Translations under genes and position numbers: made by a program
Source: Psychroserpens ponticola
GTDB taxonomy: Bacteria > Bacteroidota > Bacteroidia > Flavobacteriales > Flavobacteriaceae
Assembly (NCBI RefSeq): GCF_023556315.2
Contig: NZ_CP116221.1
Coordinates: 3,796,001-3,860,000 of the forward strand
Length of the DNA: 64,000 bases
Reading direction: 5' to 3'
Notes under the pieces: generated by a model
Told to the model about the DNA's origin: nothing
Database searches by the model: none
Seen by the model: the letters and a program-made list of their open reading frames with translations, nothing else
Shown here: positions 52,958-64,000 of the stretch, in pieces
Position numbering within the stretch: position 1 is the stretch's first letter
How the letters are laid out: each line of letters opens with the position of its first letter

Positions 52958-54931
52958 GTGAAAATGGCAAGCAAAAAAACACATTTACTTTTAGGCTTTT
53001 TCTTTTTAGGATTCCTCTCTGTCTATGGTCAACGGATTGAAATTGACCGACTAGAACGTGACTTTAAAGGACGTTATAGTGGTCGTAAATCTTACGAGCT
53101 TTCGCAGAAGATGATACAATTAGATAGCACCTATTATGTTGGTCATTTTTTTGAAGCGAATTATCGTTATTTTAGAGCTTCAGATAAACGAGGATACGAA
53201 TCTGCAATTAAATCACTTGAAAAAGCGATCGATTTACTTGAAAAAGACTTTCCTAGAAAGCTTAAAAGATCCACAAATATTAATGTTTATATAGATCAGT
53301 ATCAATTTCAAAGAAAGTATACTTTTCTTATTTTCCTTCTTTCTAAGTGTTACGAATATATAGACGAACCTGGCAAGTCTATTAAGGTCGTTAAGAGGCT
53401 CCAAAAACGCAATTTTGTATGTAATTTTGGTGTTAATGCCTACGCAAATATCTCTTGGATTTATTTGCGAAATAGAATGTATAGTCCAGAAAAATATGAT
53501 TTTCTAAAACCTACTATCGAAGAAAACCTTGAAATAGCATCCAAATATGCCGATTCTATTAAAAATAGTGATAAATACAATCAACAATATTTAGACATTT
53601 GGTGGCCAGATTTTGCCAATGATGCACTAATGAGTTATTACCATTATAAGAATATTATTTACTCCCATCAAATTAAATTAGATTCTGCTGAATATTTCAG
53701 TAAACAATTAGAAAAATACGATAAGCTTTCCTATAACAATTACGGAAACCTTCAATTCATTCAAGCTAAATATCAAGAGGCAGAAGACAGTTATGACATC
53801 GCACGTGAAAAAGATAATTATGATGAAAAAAGCATAAAAGAGTTTGATTATATGCAATCGGCTATAAAAATTTTCAAAAATGATATACCTTCATCTAAAA
53901 CCATAATTGAAGAGTCTATAAATAACCTTGGCAATGCTCCTGGATTTGGATGGAATAATATTGCGCTTAGTAGAGCATATTATTATTCAGGAGATTTAAA
54001 AAAATCTAAAAAATTTAGAGACATAGCGGCTAATTTTAAGGAAATACATGTTGGTAGTACTTGGGGAGAAGTTGCATATGATCGCAACACGCTTTTGTTT
54101 AAATATTTATTCCATAAGAAATCAATAAATGAAATTAAGTTTCGAGATCAATATTATTGGTATCAACCCAAAAAACTATATGAGATATCTAAACATCATT
54201 TTAAACAAGAAAATGCACATTTACTTCTTACTAGTGAATTGTCGGCAGATCCAGAACGATTTATAGGCTATTATAATTTGTTTGCATCAGAAAACAATAT
54301 ATTTTTCGATGAGATATGGGAGCTCATTAAGTTTTTCAATCCTGACTATTTTCTTAAAATATTTGAAAGTAAACTAAAGGATGACGAACGAGAAAGAGTG
54401 CATAAATATTTCAATTATTTTATTGCTCAGTTTCATTTAGAAAATGGAGATTATGACTTAGCCATAAATGAATTTGAGAACGTGTTAGAAAACGAATTTT
54501 TAGATACAGAAAATGAAATACTTTTAATTGCTAGAATCAATGAGGCACTAAGTAAAGCTTACACCGAAAAAGATGATAGCGCATCTGCAAATAAGTACTT
54601 AATTGACTTCTATAATAATTATCCTCAATTGGTTCCATATTCAAGTCTTAAAATGAAATTTAATCTTAAAGTGATTAATAAGAGCTTGACACCAAGACAG
54701 GAAGAAATTATAGAAGAACTTAAGGATTGTAATATTGAATGGGTTGAAAACAATTCAGATTGGCCAACACTAAAAATTAATATTACTGAGAACGAAAAAA
54801 AACAAGTAATAGTTTATCAAGTTGAAGTTGATAATGAAACTAAATTTGAAGGTAATTTTGATTTAAAAGATGTAGAATATCCAGGACAATTAATAGCTTT
54901 CAAAGCGTTTGGAATTGACTTAGAAGATTAA
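52958..54931 (+). CDS. Secreted TPR-containing protein
   Basis: 657 residues: signal peptide (LLLGFFFLGFLSVYGQ), then helical TPR-type repeats (EANYRYFRASDKRGYESAIK, YSGDLKKSKKFRDIAA, FHLENGDYDLAINEFENVL). GTG start at 52958, with AAGGAGG at 52945-52951 giving a six-base spacing; an ATG six bases later would have a 12-base spacing. Such a strong Shine-Dalgarno site is unusual in this phylum. Fourth gene of the operon; probably the periplasmic scaffold partner. Confidence 0.78.
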   Translation: MKMASKKTHLLLGFFFLGFLSVYGQRIEIDRLERDFKGRYSGRKSYELSQKMIQLDSTYYVGHFFEANYRYFRASDKRGYESAIKSLEKAIDLLEKDFPRKLKRSTNINVYIDQYQFQRKYTFLIFLLSKCYEYIDEPGKSIKVVKRLQKRNFVCNFGVNAYANISWIYLRNRMYSPEKYDFLKPTIEENLEIASKYADSIKNSDKYNQQYLDIWWPDFANDALMSYYHYKNIIYSHQIKLDSAEYFSKQLEKYDKLSYNNYGNLQFIQAKYQEAEDSYDIAREKDNYDEKSIKEFDYMQSAIKIFKNDIPSSKTIIEESINNLGNAPGFGWNNIALSRAYYYSGDLKKSKKFRDIAANFKEIHVGSTWGEVAYDRNTLLFKYLFHKKSINEIKFRDQYYWYQPKKLYEISKHHFKQENAHLLLTSELSADPERFIGYYNLFASENNIFFDEIWELIKFFNPDYFLKIFESKLKDDERERVHKYFNYFIAQFHLENGDYDLAINEFENVLENEFLDTENEILLIARINEALSKAYTEKDDSASANKYLIDFYNNYPQLVPYSSLKMKFNLKVINKSLTPRQEEIIEELKDCNIEWVENNSDWPTLKINITENEKKQVIVYQVEVDNETKFEGNFDLKDVEYPGQLIAFKAFGIDLED

Positions 54932-54959
54932 AATTTTAATACACTATGGTTTCTATTTT

Positions 54960-54992
54960 AGTCTAAATTACAATTGTAGTTTAGACTTTTTT
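54960..54992 (+). terminator. Terminator of the DUF58-MoxR-TPR operon
   Basis: AGTCTAAATTAC pairs with GTAGTTTAGACT (one T-G pair) around AATT, ending in TTTTTT. The 54993-55119 stretch that follows is AT-rich and shows no other feature I can support. Confidence 0.85.
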
Positions 54993-55119
54993 ATTGTCTG
55001 ATTCTTAATTTCTCAACGAATTTTAGAGATTTTAAAGACGTTTATAATTGCACACTTAATCTTAGTTAATTCTAAATTCTTCAATTAAATACCACTTACA
55101 TTTTGCATTATTACTAAGA

Positions 55120-55185
55120 TGTTACAATAATCATAGTTCTTGTTACATACGTCACAGTCTTCTTATGAGCTTCCGTTTAGATTTG
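55120..55185 (+). promoter_or_regulatory. TGTTACA direct repeat and -7 box upstream of the surface locus
   Basis: TGTTACA at 55120-55126 and 55141-55147 lie exactly 21 bases apart; 30 bases later follows TAGATTTG (55178-55185), a match to TAnnTTTG, with no clear -33 box. A second gene of the locus (59325) has the same arrangement (59229-59294). A direct-repeat site two helical turns long with an absent -33 box fits activation by an AraC-type protein. Confidence 0.6.
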
Positions 55186-55191
55186 TTGTGT

Positions 55192-55344
55192 ATGAAAAAA
55201 AAGCGTACCACTTACCTAGGTAAGATAGATCACATTTCCACAAAAGCGATCCATCTCAATATTAATCTTTTAGAGCCTGGCAAGTATGTTTTAAATATTG
55301 TGCATAAAAATAAAATCATTAAGAAAACCACTTTTAAAAAATAA
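55192..55344 (+). CDS. Small ORF with secretion-tail-like C-terminus
   Basis: 50 codons (ATG 55192). The end LEPGKYVLNIVHKNKIIKKT looks like the last strands of a T9SS type A sorting domain (LxxGxYxLxIxxxNKIIxKxxFKK), but no signal peptide or cargo precedes it. Its ATG would be almost at the transcript start predicted from the -7 box at 55178-55185, so it may be leaderless or untranslated. It ends 4 bases before the next gene's start (55349). Confidence 0.4.
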   Translation: MKKKRTTYLGKIDHISTKAIHLNINLLEPGKYVLNIVHKNKIIKKTTFKK

Positions 55345-55348
55345 GATT

Positions 55349-56791
55349 ATGAAATCGAAGATTCAAGACTACCAAAAAAAATATTTAATGATGAGTAAAA
55401 CTCAAATTACATTTTTTATTGCTTTTTTAATCTCAATCTCAAGTTTTGCACAACAAGGCATAAATTATAAAGCACTTATTAAAGACAATCAGGGAAGTAT
55501 CGTTGCAAATCAAGATGTAACGATTCGATTCACCATGTTAGATGCACTTTCAGATGGCAATATTGAGTTTCAAGAATCCCATGATAATATTGTTTCTGAT
55601 GCAAACGGTATCGTTATAGCCAACATTGGCGAAGGCATACAATCTTTAAGTTATACTTTATTTAATGATATAGATTGGGGAAGCCATATGTACTACCTAA
55701 GAGTGGAAATAGACATCACTGGTGGTACTAATTTTACGGATATGGGAACAACTCAATTTATGGCTGTGCCCTATGCTTTACATGCCAAAACAATTAAAAA
55801 CCAAGCATTCAAAAGCGAAAACGGTTTAACTATACCTGAGAATATAAATGATGATTTTGTTTTTGGAAACACTCAACTAGATAATGTTGATAATAATTCA
55901 AATTCGCGTATGTTTTTCAATACTGGTAAATCATCGTTTAGGGCAGGTCGTACTTTAGATGATGAATGGGATGATACAAATGTAGGTAATCGATCAGTCG
56001 CTTTTGGACTTAATACCATTGCTAGTGGTTCTTACAGTACTGCTTTAGGAAATAGAACTAAAGCAGAGTCCTATGCATCTACAGCTATTGGAACTTATAA
56101 TGTAGGAGGCGGAAATACTAACTCATGGATTGATACAGACCCTCTTTTTGAAATAGGTAATGGCACAGCAACCGTAAACACAGAAACCAGAACTAATGCT
56201 TTAACCGTACTTAAAAATGGTACTACCATAGTAAATAATAAATCAGATAACGAACCAGATCTTATCTTGGGAGGCACTTCTAATTCTAGTGAGAATGGGA
56301 TTATAAGTTCAGACCCTCAATATCCTAGTAGCGATATATTTATAGAGTCTAATGACAAAGTGTTTGTTTATTTAGATGCAGATAATAACGAAAGTAATAG
56401 TGCCTTTACCATTGTAAATAGTAATGACACAAGCGTATTTAAGGTTTCAGAAGATGGCAATACTGTTATAGATGGAGAATTGAACACTACATCAACAGGA
56501 TCAGCCAATATGATTCCTATTGCTTATGGTACAATTGCAAGTAATGGAGATATTTCTACTGGTAGCGGCAATTTTACGGTAACCAACTATCTTACTGGTG
56601 CTTATTACATTACAATAAATAACGAGGTATGGAATACTACTGATTATATAACTATGTTAAGCAGAATTGGTAATACTTCTGGATTTATTAAAGCAAATTT
56701 AACTAATACAGGTTTGTTTCAAGTAACCACAAGCAACTACGCTAGTGTTGCTCAAAATACCACTTTTTCTTTTGTAATATATAAACCTTAA
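55349..56791 (+). CDS. YadA-head-repeat surface protein, paralogue 1
   Basis: About 480 residues. Signal-like TQITFFIAFLISISSFAQ, then an N-terminal domain of about 130 residues shared with the 57.6-kb gene (GINYKALIKDNQGSIVANQD, FMAVPYALHAKT). The middle holds YadA/Hia-type head repeats (NRSVAFGLNTIASGSYSTAL, GNRTKAESYASTAIGTYNVG), then ALTVLKNGTTIVNNKS. The C-terminus has no S74 chaperone, only a short beta domain. The start is uncertain: ATG 55349 gives a 14-residue extra leader; ATG 55388 would start directly at the signal peptide. Confidence 0.72.
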   Translation: MKSKIQDYQKKYLMMSKTQITFFIAFLISISSFAQQGINYKALIKDNQGSIVANQDVTIRFTMLDALSDGNIEFQESHDNIVSDANGIVIANIGEGIQSLSYTLFNDIDWGSHMYYLRVEIDITGGTNFTDMGTTQFMAVPYALHAKTIKNQAFKSENGLTIPENINDDFVFGNTQLDNVDNNSNSRMFFNTGKSSFRAGRTLDDEWDDTNVGNRSVAFGLNTIASGSYSTALGNRTKAESYASTAIGTYNVGGGNTNSWIDTDPLFEIGNGTATVNTETRTNALTVLKNGTTIVNNKSDNEPDLILGGTSNSSENGIISSDPQYPSSDIFIESNDKVFVYLDADNNESNSAFTIVNSNDTSVFKVSEDGNTVIDGELNTTSTGSANMIPIAYGTIASNGDISTGSGNFTVTNYLTGAYYITINNEVWNTTDYITMLSRIGNTSGFIKANLTNTGLFQVTTSNYASVAQNTTFSFVIYKP

Positions 56792-56807
56792 TTAATAAAT
56801 AATAACC

Positions 56808-57413
56808 ATGAAAAAACTCATAACACTCATTGTAATACTACTATTAGTTGCTTGTAAAACCGAAACAAAAAAAGACAACAATGAAACAGTTATAACTCAA
56901 CCAAAGGAAGAAGTTTCAACAAGCAAACCTAAAGACAACAATGAAACTTATCTCTGTAGAATCAATAGTAAAGATTGGGCATACACTAAAGCCTCAGGTA
57001 TTGTCTCAACACATGCAAAAACTAAAAAACGTACAGCCTTAATTACCTTCAAAAAGAAATTAGAGAAAGGCAGCGAACACCTACAGTTAACTTATGATGC
57101 AGTTACGTTTCAACTCATAGCTGTATCTGTGCAACTAAGACTACCAAAAAAGGATGGAAAACTATCTACCGCTTACTTTGACTTAAAACCCGAAACACGT
57201 AAACGTCATCCTGAAAGTGAACTATCTGGAAGTATTGATTTATCAAATGCATCAGTTACAATAGGTACAGCAGAAATAACAAATCTTAATATTAATTATG
57301 AAAAAGATAAGCTAAAAAACGCTGAAGACTCAGTTTTAAACATAACAGGTTTAAAATTTGAAAACATTGGATATTCTGATACTGATAAGTTAGTAAACAC
57401 TTACAAAAATTAA
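56808..57413 (+). CDS. Lipoprotein of unknown function
   Basis: 201 residues: lipobox LITLIVILLLVACKTE, linker rich in Lys/Glu/Asn, then ETYLCRINSKDWAYTKASG and a beta-rich part (HLQLTYDAVTFQLIAVSV). No family recognised. It lies 16 bases after the head-repeat gene, so probably co-transcribed. The 57414-57629 gap after it holds only an AT-rich inverted repeat (CTTACA-TGTAAG, 57553-57569) followed by T-rich sequence, perhaps a weak terminator. Confidence 0.65.
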   Translation: MKKLITLIVILLLVACKTETKKDNNETVITQPKEEVSTSKPKDNNETYLCRINSKDWAYTKASGIVSTHAKTKKRTALITFKKKLEKGSEHLQLTYDAVTFQLIAVSVQLRLPKKDGKLSTAYFDLKPETRKRHPESELSGSIDLSNASVTIGTAEITNLNINYEKDKLKNAEDSVLNITGLKFENIGYSDTDKLVNTYKN

Positions 57414-57629
57414 GCTTTAAACATTTAATTTGAAGATAGCAGTTGCAAAAATAATAAATGACTTAACTACCTAATTAGAGCAGAAAGGCAAAACTCAACA
57501 ATTGTTTGAAACCATATTAAAAATAACTAACGATGTAATACTTTGTATTAATCTTACAATATATGTAAGTGTTTTTTATTTTTTCATATATTGTTGATTT
57601 GTAACACTTAACAACTTAAACCTCAAATC

Positions 57630-59201
57630 ATGAAAAAAGTATTTCTTTTACTTGCATTTAGTATGACATTTTTAAATTATGCTCAACAAGGCATTAACTA
57701 CAAAGCCCTTGTTAAAGATGGCTTAGGCAATGTGGTAGCCAACCAAACCATAGATGTGCAATTCACCATTTTGGAAGATGCTACCAATGTTTATCAAGAA
57801 ACACATACACCTACTACAGATGCCAACGGTCTTATTGTTCTAAATATAGGAGAAGGCACAACTAGTGATGTATTTACAGAGATAGATTGGGCAAAAGACG
57901 ACCACTTTTTGAATGTGCATATTGATACAGGTTCTGGTTTTGTAGATATGGGAACTACACAGTTTTTGGCAGTGCCTTATGCTTTAAGTGCGGCAAATGT
58001 TACTGGTTTAGAAAAATTAGATGAAGGTGGTGGTTATAGAATAGTAGGAAGAAATCCAAGCCGATATGGAGAAGTGGGTTTTAATGCTGTAGATTTTAGT
58101 TTTAGTAATATTTCAAGTTCTACGTTTGGGGCAACAGGAGCTTATTCATTGGCTTCAGGTTATAGAGCTACAGCCTCTGGAGCTAGTTCTAATTCCCTTG
58201 GTTCTAACACTCAAGCATTAGGGAATCATTCCACAGCCATAGGAAAAGAAACCGAAGCCTCTGGAGAACAATCCACAGCAATGGGATCTGGTACGTTTGC
58301 TTATGGGGATAATTCTACTGCAATGGGTGATATAACAATAGCCTCTGGAGATAATTCTGTAGCTATGGGAAATCTAAACTCAGCCTCTGGAGATAATTCT
58401 TTAGCATTGGGCACTTATACAACAGCTCAATCGTTCAACTCTATAGTAATGGGTCGTTTTAATGTATTGGGAGGTAATTCTACTTCATGGTTTCCAACCG
58501 AACCTTTGTTTGTGATAGGCAATGGAATAGTTAATTCAAGGAATAATGCCTTAACCATTTTAAAGAGTGGCAAAATAGGTGTTGATAAACACACAGGCAT
58601 TAATGCAAAACTAGATATCGATCACGCAAGTTCTCAAACCTCGCCTCAAATTAATATCAGAGAAACATCTGGCACGTATGCACGACTAAATATTTCTAAT
58701 ACAAATAGTTCAGACTATTGGGCTATTGCAGGAAGTTTGAATGGAACTACAGCTACAGATCGTATTAATTTTTACCATTCAGATGTTGGTGATATCATGT
58801 CTATTTTGGGTAATGGCAATGTTTTAGTAAATGGAAGTGTCGTACACAGTAGTGATCGTAGATTAAAACAAGATATTGAAACCTTGCCTTATGGTTTAAA
58901 CGAAATATTAAAACTACAGCCTAAAGCATACAATTGGAAAGCCAAAACAAATCAAGTAAATAAATCTTTAGGGCTAATAGCACAAGATGTACAGTCTGTC
59001 ATAAAAGAAATTGTGCACACAGCAGATGACGAAGACAAAACTTTAAGCGTGAGTTATACAGAATTGATTCCAATATTAATAAAAGCTTTACAAGAGCAAC
59101 AAGATATTATAGACTCACAAAACTCTAAACTTGACAATGTTGAAAAGCATTTATCTAAATTATCAAAGCGATTAGAAAACCTAGAAACTGTCAATAATTA
59201 A
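57630..59201 (+). CDS. YadA-head-repeat surface protein with S74 self-cleaving chaperone
   Basis: 523 residues. Signal (FLLLAFSMTFLNYAQ), shared N-domain (GINYKALVKDGLGNVVANQT), then about ten 14-residue YadA-head repeats at 165-265 (SNTQALGNHSTAIGKETEAS, SGDNSVAMGNLNSASGDNSL). The end is an intramolecular chaperone domain of the S74/endosialidase type (SSDRRLKQDIETL, GLIAQDVQSV) and a C-terminal coiled coil (DIIDSQNSKLDNVEKHLSKL). S74 domains trimerise phage tailspikes and cleave themselves off; here they imply a trimeric, surface fibre-like protein. Confidence 0.85.
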   Translation: MKKVFLLLAFSMTFLNYAQQGINYKALVKDGLGNVVANQTIDVQFTILEDATNVYQETHTPTTDANGLIVLNIGEGTTSDVFTEIDWAKDDHFLNVHIDTGSGFVDMGTTQFLAVPYALSAANVTGLEKLDEGGGYRIVGRNPSRYGEVGFNAVDFSFSNISSSTFGATGAYSLASGYRATASGASSNSLGSNTQALGNHSTAIGKETEASGEQSTAMGSGTFAYGDNSTAMGDITIASGDNSVAMGNLNSASGDNSLALGTYTTAQSFNSIVMGRFNVLGGNSTSWFPTEPLFVIGNGIVNSRNNALTILKSGKIGVDKHTGINAKLDIDHASSQTSPQINIRETSGTYARLNISNTNSSDYWAIAGSLNGTTATDRINFYHSDVGDIMSILGNGNVLVNGSVVHSSDRRLKQDIETLPYGLNEILKLQPKAYNWKAKTNQVNKSLGLIAQDVQSVIKEIVHTADDEDKTLSVSYTELIPILIKALQEQQDIIDSQNSKLDNVEKHLSKLSKRLENLETVNN

Positions 59202-59228
59202 TGAGCTAAAAATGGAAAAGACTCAAAA

Positions 59229-59294
59229 TGTTACATATGTTATATCATTTGTTACATAACTAAAACTCAAATTTAAGTTTAAACCTGATATTTG
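59229..59294 (+). promoter_or_regulatory. TGTTACA direct repeat and -7-like box upstream of the T9SS gene
   Basis: TGTTACA at 59229-59235 and 59250-59256 are 21 bases apart. After 30 bases follows GATATTTG (59287-59294), the same position as the -7 box in the 55120 site. This matching architecture supports a shared regulator for both transcripts. Confidence 0.6.
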
Positions 59295-59324
59295 TAAAAT
59301 AGCGTAAGAACTAAACACCCAATT

Positions 59325-61016
59325 ATGAAAACCATTAAATTAAGTTTACTACTCAACCTATTCGTTTTTTGCGGCTATAGCCAATCTATAGAGAAATTTA
59401 GTATCGATTCTGGTGGAGCTTCGACTTCCGCAGGAGGAATTCAAATTCTTTATACTATTGGTGAAGTTGTTGTACAAGAATACAGCACTACTAACCTTTC
59501 GGTTTCCGAAGGCTTTATTAATTCTAGTTTTAGACTAAAAATAAATCCTGTGGCATATTTACAAGGCCCAATTTTAAATCCAGATACAGCTGGTCTTATG
59601 AATGACGATTTGCGTGTAGCAGATCTAATTCCGACCACAAGTCCTTATGAAGATCATGCAATTTGCGATGCTTCTGTGTTTTTAGTTACAGGTAATAATG
59701 CTATTGTTGACTGGGTTTGGGTTGAACTTCGTGATGGTAGTGATAATTCTATAATTAGCAATGCGCAATCTGCATTCTTGCAACGTGATGGCGATGTTGT
59801 TGCTATAGATGGTATGAGTTCTTTAAGTGCATCGCTTCCTGATGGTAATTATTATGTATCAGTGAGCCATAGAAATCATTTAGGCGTGATGAGCGCTTCT
59901 TCATTTGCATTAAGTGGAACAGATACTATAATTGATTTAACATCAGATCCTAATCTAGTAACTGGTGGTAACAATGCTGTTGTAGTGTTGTCTAACGGAA
60001 ACCATGGTGCCTATGCTGGAGATTATGATGAGAATAATCAAATACAAAATGTGGATGCCAATAGTGTTGTACAGCTTATAGGAGGCACAGGTTATACGAA
60101 TGCAGATATGGATGCTAATACTCAAATACAAAATACGGACGTCAATGCATTAATTCAACCTAATATTGGACTCGGTCAGCAGTTTAACAGAGAGGATAGT
60201 GAACGAGAGTTTTTAGATGCTGGTATCACGCTTACGTTTGCCAATGCACAAATCACTAATGATGGTAATGATGACTTTTATGAAGCAGATGTTTTAATTG
60301 CTTCTACTGAAGATTTTTATATAGGTTCGGGTCAAATCTATTTCGATTACAATACAGATGCTTTTGGAGACAATATATCTTCAAATAATGCTATTGAATA
60401 CTCACAACCGCAAACTTCTATATTAGGCGGTTCTTATGTGGGACTTCCTGCTTATAAAGATTTTGTACAAAATGATAATAATACTTCAAGAGTATCGCTA
60501 TCCTTCCAACAAAATTTTTCAGAATCCTTCATAGCAACTAATATTCCAGATATTCAAACTACAGCAACACCTAAAGCATTGTTTCATCTTAAAATAAAAT
60601 TTATTGATGCCAGTGAAGACCCTGAGGTTTGTTTCTACAATCAAGGTGTATTTCAAGATCAATTTTATACAGCATGTGGAGGTGCTGGTGCTGCAGATTG
60701 TACTAATAACCCTGGAGAGCAAATTACAGATGACACCTATGATTGTTCTGGAGCAGATATAGATACATTGAATTTAGACGCATATCAAGAGAACACTATT
60801 GTCATATTTCCAAACCCAGTTCGTAAGACATTTGAAATTAAAGGGATTAAAAATCCGTATGATTTAAATATTTATGATGTTTCCGGAAAATTAGTACTTC
60901 AGTTGAGCAATATTATAAATCAAACTATCGATATGAGTGTCTATGAAAATGGTGTGTATTTGGTTGAAATTATAACAGATAAAGACTCAATCACTAAAAA
61001 GATTGTAGTTAAATAA
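59325..61016 (+). CDS. Secreted protein with T9SS type A sorting domain and dockerin-like repeats
   Basis: 563 residues: signal peptide (LLLNLFVFCGYSQ), a segment SIEKFSIDSGGASTSAGG and TIGEVVVQEY known from the start of many T9SS cargo proteins. A dockerin-like Ca repeat pair (GDYDENNQIQNVDANSVVQL, MDANTQIQNTDVNALI) lies near 235-275. The C-terminal sorting domain has IVIFPNPVRKTFEIKG, YDVSGKLV and the final GVYLVEI...KKIVVK. It would be exported by T9SS and its tail removed for surface attachment. Role unknown. Confidence 0.87.
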   Translation: MKTIKLSLLLNLFVFCGYSQSIEKFSIDSGGASTSAGGIQILYTIGEVVVQEYSTTNLSVSEGFINSSFRLKINPVAYLQGPILNPDTAGLMNDDLRVADLIPTTSPYEDHAICDASVFLVTGNNAIVDWVWVELRDGSDNSIISNAQSAFLQRDGDVVAIDGMSSLSASLPDGNYYVSVSHRNHLGVMSASSFALSGTDTIIDLTSDPNLVTGGNNAVVVLSNGNHGAYAGDYDENNQIQNVDANSVVQLIGGTGYTNADMDANTQIQNTDVNALIQPNIGLGQQFNREDSEREFLDAGITLTFANAQITNDGNDDFYEADVLIASTEDFYIGSGQIYFDYNTDAFGDNISSNNAIEYSQPQTSILGGSYVGLPAYKDFVQNDNNTSRVSLSFQQNFSESFIATNIPDIQTTATPKALFHLKIKFIDASEDPEVCFYNQGVFQDQFYTACGGAGAADCTNNPGEQITDDTYDCSGADIDTLNLDAYQENTIVIFPNPVRKTFEIKGIKNPYDLNIYDVSGKLVLQLSNIINQTIDMSVYENGVYLVEIITDKDSITKKIVVK

Positions 61017-61037
61017 TATATTAGTTGAATTTGAAAC

Positions 61038-61053
61038 AGTCTTTTAAAAGACT
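61038..61053. other. Perfect 16-bp palindrome after the T9SS gene
   Basis: AGTCTTTTAAAAGACT without a loop or T tract. It lies 22 bases after the stop. Could form a hairpin only with a small loop, so a weak terminator or a binding site for a dimeric protein. Confidence 0.4.
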
Positions 61054-61182
61054 AGAAAATAAATCCCAATAAATAGCATGATTAATAGAGGAGGAATGGC
61101 TAAAACTTAGGTTTATGTTGTTCCTTTTTTGCTAAATGAGTATCGGTTAATATTCTTTATATTTATTGAATCAATTTTTTAT

Positions 61183-64000
61183 ATGATTAAGAAGCTACTC
61201 GTCTTATGTTTTATGTTGTGCTTTGGGTTTCTTCAAAGTCAGCAAAAGACTGAGACTTCTTTTTTGAATTTTAATGAAATTAAACAAGAGGTTTCCGGAC
61301 AATGGATTTCTTCAATATATCAAGATAAAGACGGATTTATTTGGGTTGGTACACAAGATGGATTGTATAAATATGATGGAAAGAATTTTAAAGCATTTCG
61401 TTACAATCCTACCAATAAAAATTCTTTACCTGCCAATTGGGTACGCTCTATAAATCAAGATAAAAACGGTGTGTTTTGGCTAGGAACTCATGGCGCTGGT
61501 TTAGTGAAATTTGAGGAGAGTACTTTAAAATTTACCGATGTTGACATGTCTTCGCCAACTGAAAGCGATAATATAAAATTAGTTTTTGATGCTATTACCA
61601 CAAAAGCATTAACAACTTGGGTTGTTAGTGATAATGGATTGTATAGAAAGTCCTTAACAGATCCTTTTTTTGTAAAAATCGTAAAGCCAGGTAACTCAAC
61701 GCGAGTTTATGAGTTGCACGACGGCTCAGAAATTGTAGTTTTTGAAAACAAACTCTTTTCTTTTAATAAAACAACCAACAAATTAGAAGTCTTACTTAGT
61801 GATATTCCTATTGATAAACTTTTGATTTCTGGTGAAAAATCAATCATTTACAACTCAGAAGGGAAGCTGTACCGTTATAATTTTATAGGATCTCCTAAAG
61901 AAATTAATATACCAAATAATGAAACAATCAATTCAATATCTAATCTCCAAAACGGCAAATGTATTTTAGTTGGTGATGTGAAAAATTATAGTTTTGATGT
62001 AACATCTGAAACGTTTGAAACTTATAATTATAACATTCAACAATTCGAAAAATTAGGCATTAATGAACTTTTTATCGATAAGCAAAACCTGTTATGGGTA
62101 GCCACTAATAAAGGTTTATTTAAAGAAAGTTTATTGGGAAAAGTTTTTACTGGCACAATAGATTTACATGCTAGAAAAATTTTAAAAAGCTTAGACACGA
62201 CATACATTGGTGGAGGCAAAGGCTTACATAGAATTATTAATAATACTGATGGATCACAAGAACAAGAAACACTTAATAATACTAGAGTAACTTCACTTTG
62301 CAAAACTAAAGATGGTTTGTGGTTTGGCCATTATTATGGAAGCGTATTTTTTGTTGATAAAAATGATAATATAAAAACGATTGATTTGCGACAAGGGAAT
62401 CACGAATCACTTAGAATTTATGGAATTGTTGAAGATAAAAACAATAGAATATGGGTAAGCACTTGGTTCGGAATTTATATGCTCAATCCTGATGGTGAGA
62501 TTAGTAATACATATAATTTAAAATCTAAGCATGATGGAAAAGATGTTAAAATACTCAAAGTATTAATTGATAATGATGATAATTTATGGGCAATAACCGT
62601 TGGTGATGGCGTGTTTAGAATACCAAATATTTCTGAAGTAAATGCTTCAACAGATACATTGATTTACAAACATTATGTACATGATGACGATGATGAAAAT
62701 ACTATAAATACCAATGTTGTTATGGAAATTCATTTAAGTCCAAAAGGCAATATTTGGATTGGTTCAGATTTTGGAATTAATACATATAACAAAGAAAAAG
62801 ACAATTTTGACCCGTTGATTGTTAATGGTACTTTTTTCGATAAAAAAATAATGGCAATTGAAACAGATGTTAATAATTTAATGTGGGTTAGCACTATTAC
62901 TGATGGCATTTATGTTTACAACCAACGAAACAATAGACTTTTTAACTTAAGAGAAGAAGATGGCTTAGTGTCTAACGCATGCTTATATACATCGAGCACA
63001 AACGATAAAAACACACTCTATTTTGGCACAGATAATGGTGTGCAAATTATCGATGCATCGCGTTTTTCTTATCCAGAGGTTAAAACCGCACCCAAATTTA
63101 CTGCGTTAACTATTAAAGACGAAAAATTATCTGTAATTCAAAATTTATCTGCACAAAATCAACCTATTAATATTGATTATAGTCAACCTAATTTTTCGGT
63201 GAGTTTTGCAATAACAGATTATCGTTTTCCGCAAAAAATAAATTATTATTACAAATTAGGTGATAATGCTGTTTGGACAAAATCTGAAGACAATACCATT
63301 AACTTTAGCAGCCTAAATTTTGGAACTTATAACCTATATGTAAAGGCTGCATATCAAGTTGATGATGATGCTCCAATTGCTACGCTAGCATTAAAAATAA
63401 ATCCACCTTGGTATAAATCAATAGTAGCTTATAGTTTGTTTTTTCTCCTATTAGCAGCAGTTATTTTTTACTTTTTTCAATTGCGATACAAACAAAAATT
63501 GGCTTCCACTAAACTAAAAGCAGTAGAAGAATTAGACCATATAAAATCAAACCTTTTTACAAATATATCTCATGAACTCAGAACACCTCTAACCTTAATT
63601 TCTGGACCCATTGAGCATCAATTATCTAAAAACAATTTAGAAGAAGATGATCGAGAAGAATTAAGCTTAGTTAAGCGAAATGCAGACCGATTACTGAATC
63701 TTGTTAATCAACTCATGGATTTAGCTTTAATAGATTCAGGACAATTAAAACTTAAAATAAATGAAGGCAATTTAAATTTGCTTTTAAAACAAGCTGTAGA
63801 TGCATTTCGATACCAAGCAGAAATTAATGGCATTAAAATATACTCAGACATAAATCAACTAGAATCTGTTTGGTACGACAGAGATAGCCTTCAAAAAATA
63901 GTCTTTAATTTATTATCGAACGCTGTAAAATACGCAACATCTAATTCTAGTATTGCGTTTAATGCTAGTCAGCAGGATAAAAACTTAGTGTTATCTGTTG
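61183..64000 (+). CDS. Hybrid two-component sensor kinase with regulator propeller (partial at window end)
   Basis: At least 939 residues, truncated by the window. Signal peptide (LLVLCFMLCFGFLQSQ), then ligand-sensing two-component propeller repeats (IYQDKDGFIWVGTQDGLYKY, INQDKNGVFWLGTHGAGLVK), a Y_Y_Y domain about 660-740 (FGTYNLYVKAAY), a membrane helix 747-767 (IVAYSLFFLLLAAVIFYFF), and HisKA with phosphorylated His797 in ISHELRTPLTLI, then an N-box NLLSNAVKYA. Family members end in receiver and AraC-type HTH domains, which would lie beyond the window. Likely regulator of the neighbouring surface genes. Confidence 0.88.
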   Translation, partial: MIKKLLVLCFMLCFGFLQSQQKTETSFLNFNEIKQEVSGQWISSIYQDKDGFIWVGTQDGLYKYDGKNFKAFRYNPTNKNSLPANWVRSINQDKNGVFWLGTHGAGLVKFEESTLKFTDVDMSSPTESDNIKLVFDAITTKALTTWVVSDNGLYRKSLTDPFFVKIVKPGNSTRVYELHDGSEIVVFENKLFSFNKTTNKLEVLLSDIPIDKLLISGEKSIIYNSEGKLYRYNFIGSPKEINIPNNETINSISNLQNGKCILVGDVKNYSFDVTSETFETYNYNIQQFEKLGINELFIDKQNLLWVATNKGLFKESLLGKVFTGTIDLHARKILKSLDTTYIGGGKGLHRIINNTDGSQEQETLNNTRVTSLCKTKDGLWFGHYYGSVFFVDKNDNIKTIDLRQGNHESLRIYGIVEDKNNRIWVSTWFGIYMLNPDGEISNTYNLKSKHDGKDVKILKVLIDNDDNLWAITVGDGVFRIPNISEVNASTDTLIYKHYVHDDDDENTINTNVVMEIHLSPKGNIWIGSDFGINTYNKEKDNFDPLIVNGTFFDKKIMAIETDVNNLMWVSTITDGIYVYNQRNNRLFNLREEDGLVSNACLYTSSTNDKNTLYFGTDNGVQIIDASRFSYPEVKTAPKFTALTIKDEKLSVIQNLSAQNQPINIDYSQPNFSVSFAITDYRFPQKINYYYKLGDNAVWTKSEDNTINFSSLNFGTYNLYVKAAYQVDDDAPIATLALKINPPWYKSIVAYSLFFLLLAAVIFYFFQLRYKQKLASTKLKAVEELDHIKSNLFTNISHELRTPLTLISGPIEHQLSKNNLEEDDREELSLVKRNADRLLNLVNQLMDLALIDSGQLKLKINEGNLNLLLKQAVDAFRYQAEINGIKIYSDINQLESVWYDRDSLQKIVFNLLSNAVKYATSNSSIAFNASQQDKNLVLSV

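Follow-up and report, generated by a model that had tools for sequence, protein, structure and literature searches.

A predicted tandem operator of AraC-type hybrid two-component sensors, set at a fixed distance from the −7 box, before surface-protein genes of Psychroserpens ponticola and other Flavobacteriaceae

We analyzed a 64-kb stretch of the genome of Psychroserpens ponticola (the window, C1:3796001-3860000 of a 4,029,301-bp genome that consists of one contig, C1, with 31% GC), in which surface-protein genes and the gene of a hybrid sensor lie close to two copies of the direct repeat TGTTACA-N14-TGTTACA, at 55120-55147 and 59229-59256 (positions without a prefix are counted within the window). 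These are the sole exact tandems of the window, and exactly 30 bases past each of them begins a −7-like box, TAGATTTG at 55178 and GATATTTG at 59287, positions that were given in an earlier reading of this DNA (the original prediction) and that the sequence confirms. We interpret the repeats as predicted operators of hybrid two-component systems (HTCS). Site 1 covers 55120-55157, with half-sites at 55120-55136 and 55141-55157, TGTTACA cores 21 bp apart and its −7 box at 55178-55185, 30 bp behind the second core; site 2 covers 59229-59266, with half-sites at 59229-59245 and 59250-59266, cores of the type that pairs with methionine-bearing sensors (Met type, see below) and its −7-like box at 59287-59294, again 30 bp behind the second core. 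Transcription from site 1 would start near 55190. All window features described here lie on the plus strand.

Surface or exported genes follow both sites, as had been claimed, but the first open frame behind site 1 encodes a microprotein of 50 aa instead of a surface protein (55192-55344; MKKKRTTYLGKIDHISTKAIHLNINLLEPGKYVLNIVHKNKIIKKTTFKK; profile match, 3.1e-19). The first large gene of the unit (55349-56791) encodes a surface protein with YadA-head repeats (Pfam YadA_head, 6.9e-8) and is followed by the gene of a 201-aa protein with a lipoprotein-like N terminus and no Pfam family over the cutoff (56808-57413), which probably belongs to the same transcript, and by that of a surface protein combining YadA-head repeats with a Peptidase_S74 (endosialidase chaperone) end (57630-59201; Pfam, 6.9e-21 and 2e-14). 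Site 2 precedes, without a microprotein, the gene of an exported protein with a type IX secretion system (T9SS) sorting domain (59325-61016; Por_Secre_tail, 3.1e-12). No known RNA element scored above its gathering threshold in 54900-61300.

The hybrid sensor gene begins at 61183 and continues past the window end at 64000 to C1:3861028. Its product of 1281 aa contains a Reg_prop propeller, HisKA, HATPase_c, Response_reg and HTH_18 (Pfam), with Y_Y_Y just below the cutoff, and thus unites in one protein the sensor, histidine kinase, receiver and AraC-type helix-turn-helix (HTH) parts that define an HTCS. The AraC-type output domain that the original prediction expected of this sensor lies just beyond the window (HTH_18, 3.4e-22, C1:3860786-3861019). 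Between the gene of site 2 and the start of the sensor gene there are 166 bp, in which no terminator-like site was listed, so the window sensor may be autoregulated.

Exact tandems occur far above the expectation of a Markov model of the window, from which the genome figure was also derived: 2 against 0.0015 in the window and 4 against 0.093 in the genome. The two outside the window (C1:1072883, minus strand; C1:1200452, plus strand) lie directly behind HTCS genes and are followed, exactly 30 bp on, by a TAnnTTTA box, TAGTTTTA or TACATTTA. A fifth, variant operator (site 3), TGTCACA-N14-TGACACA-N30-TAGATTTA, lies just past the window end at C1:3861093-3861158, 64 bp past the stop codon of the window sensor. 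The relaxed pattern TGNNACA-N14-TGNNACA-N30-TANNTTTR, with at most one mismatch, matches five times in the genome, against once for the reversed pattern. Five one-mismatch tandems were also found in the genome; all five fall within long open frames, and we judged them to be chance matches.

The geometry is rigid well beyond this genome. Across 299 genomes of the Flavobacteriaceae, the pattern with a fixed 30-bp distance has 92 matches in 58 genomes and the reversed pattern none (the 92 were counted by hand; 86 were retrieved with wide flanks, 6 were not, and the site statistics use the 86). When any distance from 18 to 42 bp was allowed and the box was tightened to TAnnTTTG, 49 matches were obtained in 39 genomes, again with none for the reversed pattern, and the box stands at 30 bp in 46 of them, at 31 bp in two (G219 and G215) and at 29 bp in one (G224). 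A further test used microprotein loci without an exact TGTTACA pair, namely the 40 out of 46 that have an HTCS stop codon within 400 bp. In every one of the 40 the best tandem is spaced 21 bp (in 4, other spacings score equally well), with 11 to 14 of 14 positions matching and at least 12 in 39 loci; of 2,000 shuffled controls, 1,712 give 10 or 11 matches and 207 give 12 or 13. A TA lies exactly 30 bp on in 40 of 40 loci, and TAnnTTT in 35, so that the fixed distance to the −7 box asserted in the original prediction stands. Among the six excluded loci, L214 (a second copy) shows an operator, and the other five show none that is clear in the printed sequence. In a scan of named genomes the geometry was present in 17 of the 18 loci listed (L251 being without it), at least four of which overlap loci of the earlier set; those listed include Xanthomarina, Yeosuana, Cochleicola, Winogradskyella, Dokdonia, Altibacter, Aequorivita, Flavobacterium filum, Tamlana, Aquimarina and a metagenome-assembled genome of the Cyclobacteriaceae, among others.

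In the logo of the 86 sites the motif widens to ATGTTACATatgTt.tA...TTTGTTACATa.gT.aTA, which resolves into two half-sites of ∼17 bp in which a second box follows one turn behind TGTTACA. Each half-site thus has a box A, TGTTACA or TGnAACA, and a box B, approximately yAk, one turn downstream, and the half-sites are 21 bp apart. In Flavobacterium psychrophilum, TAnnTTTG lies at −12 to −5 of the start (PMC9723704). On that count the proximal TGTTACA would span −49 to −43, and its second box would fall near −35/−34. The proximal second box would then occupy the place of the −33 element, and the missing −33 box fits the activator-dependent promoter that had been proposed, since the proximal half-site covers that position.

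The motif is tied to HTCS genes. For 44 of the 86 sites, an HTCS gene of the same strand ends at most 600 bp before the site, whereas random positions in these loci have such a neighbor in 1.2% of cases; the motif is thus not spread randomly, one way in which the original prediction could have failed. Two direct repeats ∼21 bp apart near an HTCS gene were found across the loci. As a control set, 30 loci were chosen from 119 genomes of the order by similarity to the receiver-AraC (REC-AraC) region. Three of these have a close AraC domain, and an operator lies behind two of the three, namely behind the window sensor and at L261 (the latter already in the earlier set). It was found behind 0 of the 27 others, which ties the operator to one clade of AraC domains and not to HTCS genes generally. 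The three sensors of this clade in the genome (P0001, P0002 and P0003) carry Reg_prop (P0001 and P0003) or TPR (P0002) input and the four cytoplasmic domains. All three have the S/CHIP motif of the receiver-AraC interface in the form SHIP, in a check that covered the motif itself; it is described as a feature of phosphorylation-gated HTCS (PMC11253607). The AraC domain of the fourth HTCS of the genome (C1:137692) is more distant, with 85.7 bits against 207 to 211 for the other three. Its gene lies in a neighborhood (L235, C1:131000-145000) beside that of a large VGIGNTDPKASLDI-type surface protein and that of a protein with a T9SS-like end, and other HTCS groups may thus serve surface genes too.

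Within the clade, sites and sensors vary together. Over 89 sensor-operator pairs, with residues numbered in the last 112, residue 41 in the first HTH (SR[M/T]QLHRK) is the top-ranked column at three of the four box A positions and comes second, after residue 7, at the remaining one. Met41 goes with T (TGTTACA) in 68 of 68 pairs and Thr/Ser41 with A at position 24 in 20 of 21, the remaining pair, with C, being that of the window sensor. Box B covaries most with residues 89, 94 and 77 in the second HTH region. A second layer concerns the input domain, although sensor types outside this genome were assigned by length alone (at least 1200 aa, propeller type here; 850 to 1110 aa, TPR type here), which counts against our reading. 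The IDHL type of microprotein was found in 35/36 cases with long and 3/38 with short sensors (84 microproteins compared, 75 with a sensor label); three TPR-labeled entries carry the other microprotein type, among them L206, whose sensor gene is cut by a contig end. Operators likewise fall into two dialects: position 16 of the first half-site is T in 35/46 long-sensor and G in 30/42 short-sensor cases, and a dialect classifier assigned 79 of 88 operators correctly in leave-one-out tests. It scores site 1 at −17.2 (TPR), site 2 at +0.3 (undecided) and site 3 at +8.2 (propeller).

The genes behind the operators mostly encode exported proteins. The first genes behind a microprotein (n = 81) belong to Peptidase_S74 in 19 cases, YadA_head in 10, OmpA in 10, DUF4412 in 6 and Lipocalin_4 in 4, with fewer for the others, and the SusC, SusD and TonB families account for 0 of the 81 (all 22 families considered). 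Among the first genes of sites without a microprotein (n = 53, cut at 500 aa), the families listed include Por_Secre_tail (8), DUF7452 (5), DUF4412 (5) and OmpA (3), and neither SusC nor SusD is among the 25 of 32 families listed. We therefore set aside regulation of polysaccharide utilization loci, given that no SusC or SusD occurs in the first genes scanned, later genes lying outside the scan. A signal-like N terminus, called by a crude hydrophobicity rule, is present in 115 of 131 first genes compared to 580 of 1,001 background frames. Since the same 53 genes include three for GAF-AraC regulators and one for a ribonucleotide reductase subunit, the targets are not all exported. Some operators thus lie directly before a GAF-AraC regulator gene (3/53; e.g., L084:8901-9974), an arrangement that suggests a cascade. 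The DUF7452 proteins are recurrent targets in several genomes (L117, L122 and others), with a T9SS sorting domain in the two examined.

The microprotein defines a family of ∼50 aa, found by scanning behind the sites, with the consensus IYLNIDHLKxGxYxLxIxxKNKxIKxxxFKK and conserved core residues L, G and Y. No Pfam or NCBIfam model matches it above its cutoff, and it has no visible signal peptide. A genome-wide profile search found four microproteins (3.1e-19 to 8.6e-16; next match, 0.044), placing one behind four of the five operators, all but site 2. In the 299 genomes it has 84 matches in 67 genomes, one match (G232) being left out of the retrieved loci; a phylum-wide sample has it in 5 of 247 genomes, one of them in another family. 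Of the 87 microproteins in the retrieved loci, 76 have an HTCS gene (product, more than 700 aa) less than 400 bp upstream. The assigned start codon is ATG in 82 of 87, and alignment A2 holds 83 of them, excluding two 30-aa members, a 68-aa one and L189, a near-copy. The protein is conserved: among 20 close pairs, dN/dS (the ratio of nonsynonymous to synonymous substitution rates) is 0.05 to 0.27 in the 7 whose dS is below 1, dS being saturated in 9 of the 20, and is 0.15 between the window member and its nearest relative (L136; 74% identical). L136 lies behind an HTCS of 964 residues, within the TPR length range, and the surface gene behind its microprotein is 37% identical to that at 55349; site 1 thus looks like such a cassette minus its sensor. 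The ATG at 55192 would leave the site 1 mRNA almost leaderless if it started 12 bp behind the TA, near 55190, and the L136 relative has its ATG equally close behind the box. One genome (G379; L232 and L233) carries three HTCS genes and three microproteins within ∼20 kb.

The predicted structure of the microprotein (mean predicted local distance difference test, 88; predicted template modeling score, 0.49) has an extended first half and a confident C-terminal hairpin. A fold search of the PDB with this model returned nothing at E ≤ 0.001, and the best PDB sequence match has an E value of 0.063, so that neither suggests a function. Toward its C terminus the microprotein is weakly similar, over its second half, to the last part of the T9SS sorting domain (best match, 1.4e-5; 21 of 30 members match at E ≤ 1). 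The window member aligns to profile positions 39 to 73 of 75 and, at 15.2 bits, misses the curated cutoff of 27. Because the type of microprotein follows the type of sensor while the targets vary, it probably acts as feedback on the circuit rather than on the cargo. A more specific proposal, which we put forward only tentatively, is that it serves this HTCS clade as a dedicated partner: made first when the operon is switched on, it would bind the sensor in the cytoplasm and set its output, so that sensor, operator and microprotein would form a cassette placeable before any exported-protein gene. If so, the cassette, with its dialects and recognition residues, would be a readable wiring code from sensors to surface-protein genes.

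Taken as a whole, with the assignments of microproteins and of sensors to sites included, these data make it highly probable that the motif is the operator of HTCS with AraC-type output, built into an activator-dependent promoter. On signal detection, phosphorylation of the receiver would lead the AraC domains to bind the two head-to-tail half-sites, which are separated by two turns (21 bp) and presumably each take one AraC domain of a dimer. The proximal box A ends 30 bp ahead of the −7 box TAnnTTTR, and the proximal half-site would accordingly cover about −49 to −33, at the place of the −33 element, from which the bound domains could hold RNA polymerase at the −7 box. The genes switched on first would mostly encode exported proteins (YadA-head/S74 surface proteins, OmpA, lipoproteins and T9SS cargo), often preceded, where the operator lies behind an HTCS gene, by the signal-less microprotein of ∼50 aa acting on the circuit. 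The class of mechanism put forward in the original prediction is thus well supported.

Its choice of sensor is another matter. Binding of sites 1 and 2 by the window sensor, with control of the entire surface-gene cluster, would agree with several facts: its gene is the nearest HTCS gene (5.9 kb from site 1 and 1.8 kb from site 2), the cluster with its three operators lies on both sides of that gene, sites 1 to 3 share the geometry and part of the half-site, and Bacteroides HTCS usually act on their own locus (PMC3878776). We nevertheless consider it doubtful. The window sensor has Thr41, whereas TGTTACA pairs with Met41 without exception, and it has its own variant site 64 bp behind its gene; the dialect of site 1 is that of TPR-input sensors, as are its microprotein and the sensor length at L136. 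The two other sensors, at C1:1.07 Mb and C1:1.2 Mb, have Met41. By this covariation the window sensor should read site 3, past the window, and the Met sensors elsewhere the TGTTACA sites. We conclude from the sequences that the window sensor probably reads site 3 and that the sensor at C1:1.2 Mb, Met type with TPR input, is the most likely regulator of site 1, so that the earlier assignment is probably wrong for site 1. At site 2 the Met-type core would fit a Met-type sensor elsewhere in the genome, and the second box is ambiguous.

Other readings question the sensor's involvement altogether or the role of the microprotein. LytTR sites have the identical 21-bp period, and the genome has 22 HTH_18 places, many of them in short proteins, so a LytTR protein or a free-standing AraC activator might read the tandem; this is very improbable, as the HTCS genes that precede sites belong to a single AraC-domain clade and the site sequences covary with columns in the HTH regions of these sensors, and we set the LytTR reading aside because the linked regulators are AraC type, no search for LytTR genes having been made. 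Nor does an origin by chance or from low complexity in AT-rich DNA, for which one could cite the low GC content and the 22 window matches against 15 expected when three mismatches are allowed, carry more than a negligible probability in view of the excess of exact sites, the absence of reversed-pattern matches in 299 genomes and the 40 of 40 loci of the geometry test. Unlikely, though less so, is that the microprotein gene is a leader peptide acting only in cis, its translation controlling the genes behind it. It is the first frame behind the promoter, and the next long frame lies at most 40 nt away in 52 of 81 cases, with a 4-base overlap in 11; its residues, however, are conserved at a low dN/dS without an evident run of a single amino acid, a confident hairpin is predicted, and some copies lie inside operons far from any operator (L122 and L193).

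Several further observations weigh against the HTCS operator reading or limit it. No HTCS gene lies within 600 bp upstream of 42 of the 86 sites, and 15 of the 104 HTCS genes in the retrieved loci have no operator behind them, the proportion with one (89/104) being biased upward as the loci were chosen for motif or microprotein. In the control set, L262 has a close AraC domain and no operator behind it. Site 2 lacks the microprotein, as do 54 of the 86 sites (it follows the other 32 within 400 bp), and the switch can therefore do without it. Nor is GATATTTG, at site 2, a canonical TA box: it has GA instead of the TA of TAnnTTTG, one mismatch to the pattern. Between the units we found one terminator-like hairpin (54960-54987), a chance-level result (3 found, 2.8 expected). 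Residue 7, which is not part of the HTH helices, has a marginally higher score than residue 41 at position 24 (z, 28.2 versus 27.4). Finally, on the AraC-domain tree residue 41 changed only 2 times and the position-24 base 3 times, with one supported independent pair, so that the recognition code is not independent of descent.

AraC/MarA-type class II activators provide one precedent for the predicted promoter architecture: the two HTH units of one AraC domain read boxes one turn apart, and the proximal site overlaps the −35 region. Here, in contrast, the predicted contacts would involve a membrane-bound hybrid kinase, a Bacteroidetes −7 box and two tandem half-sites. The 21-bp period is shared with the tandem LytTR sites of the AgrA type, whose regulators differ from the AraC-type ones linked here, and the T9SS C-terminal sorting domain (PF18962, TIGR04183) resembles the microprotein in its end, yet the microprotein is only ∼50 aa in all and below the cutoff. 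The closest parallel is Bacteroides thetaiotaomicron, where HTCS with AraC domains and predicted operators of direct repeats at an average distance of 21 bp are already known, the repeats being interpreted as a dimer site with two turns between them on one DNA face (PMC3878776). Those regulons are polysaccharide loci with SusC/SusD, whereas the first genes here are of the YadA-head/S74, OmpA, lipocalin-like and T9SS kinds; the fixed 30-bp distance to the −7 box, the two operator dialects and the frequent microprotein gene set our case apart, and neither a fixed promoter distance nor a small leader gene is mentioned in the accessible part of that account (PMC3878776). We found no report of the rigid 30-bp promoter, the non-polysaccharide regulon or the microprotein in the open-access library searched, and the ∼50-aa microprotein is new. 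HTCS are known mainly as sugar-locus regulators of gut Bacteroides; here one clade, which spans a large environmental family, is linked with the promoters of genes for adhesin-like and other exported proteins. The regularity of these promoters (21 bp and 30 bp) makes regulons readable from sequence, sensors may be matched to sites by their recognition residues, and the constant place of the microprotein behind the sensor makes its role directly testable. Sensor genes are also found on the far side of operators: an HTCS gene starts at most 3 kb downstream on the same strand at 6 of the 86 sites, and at L100 it is the first gene.

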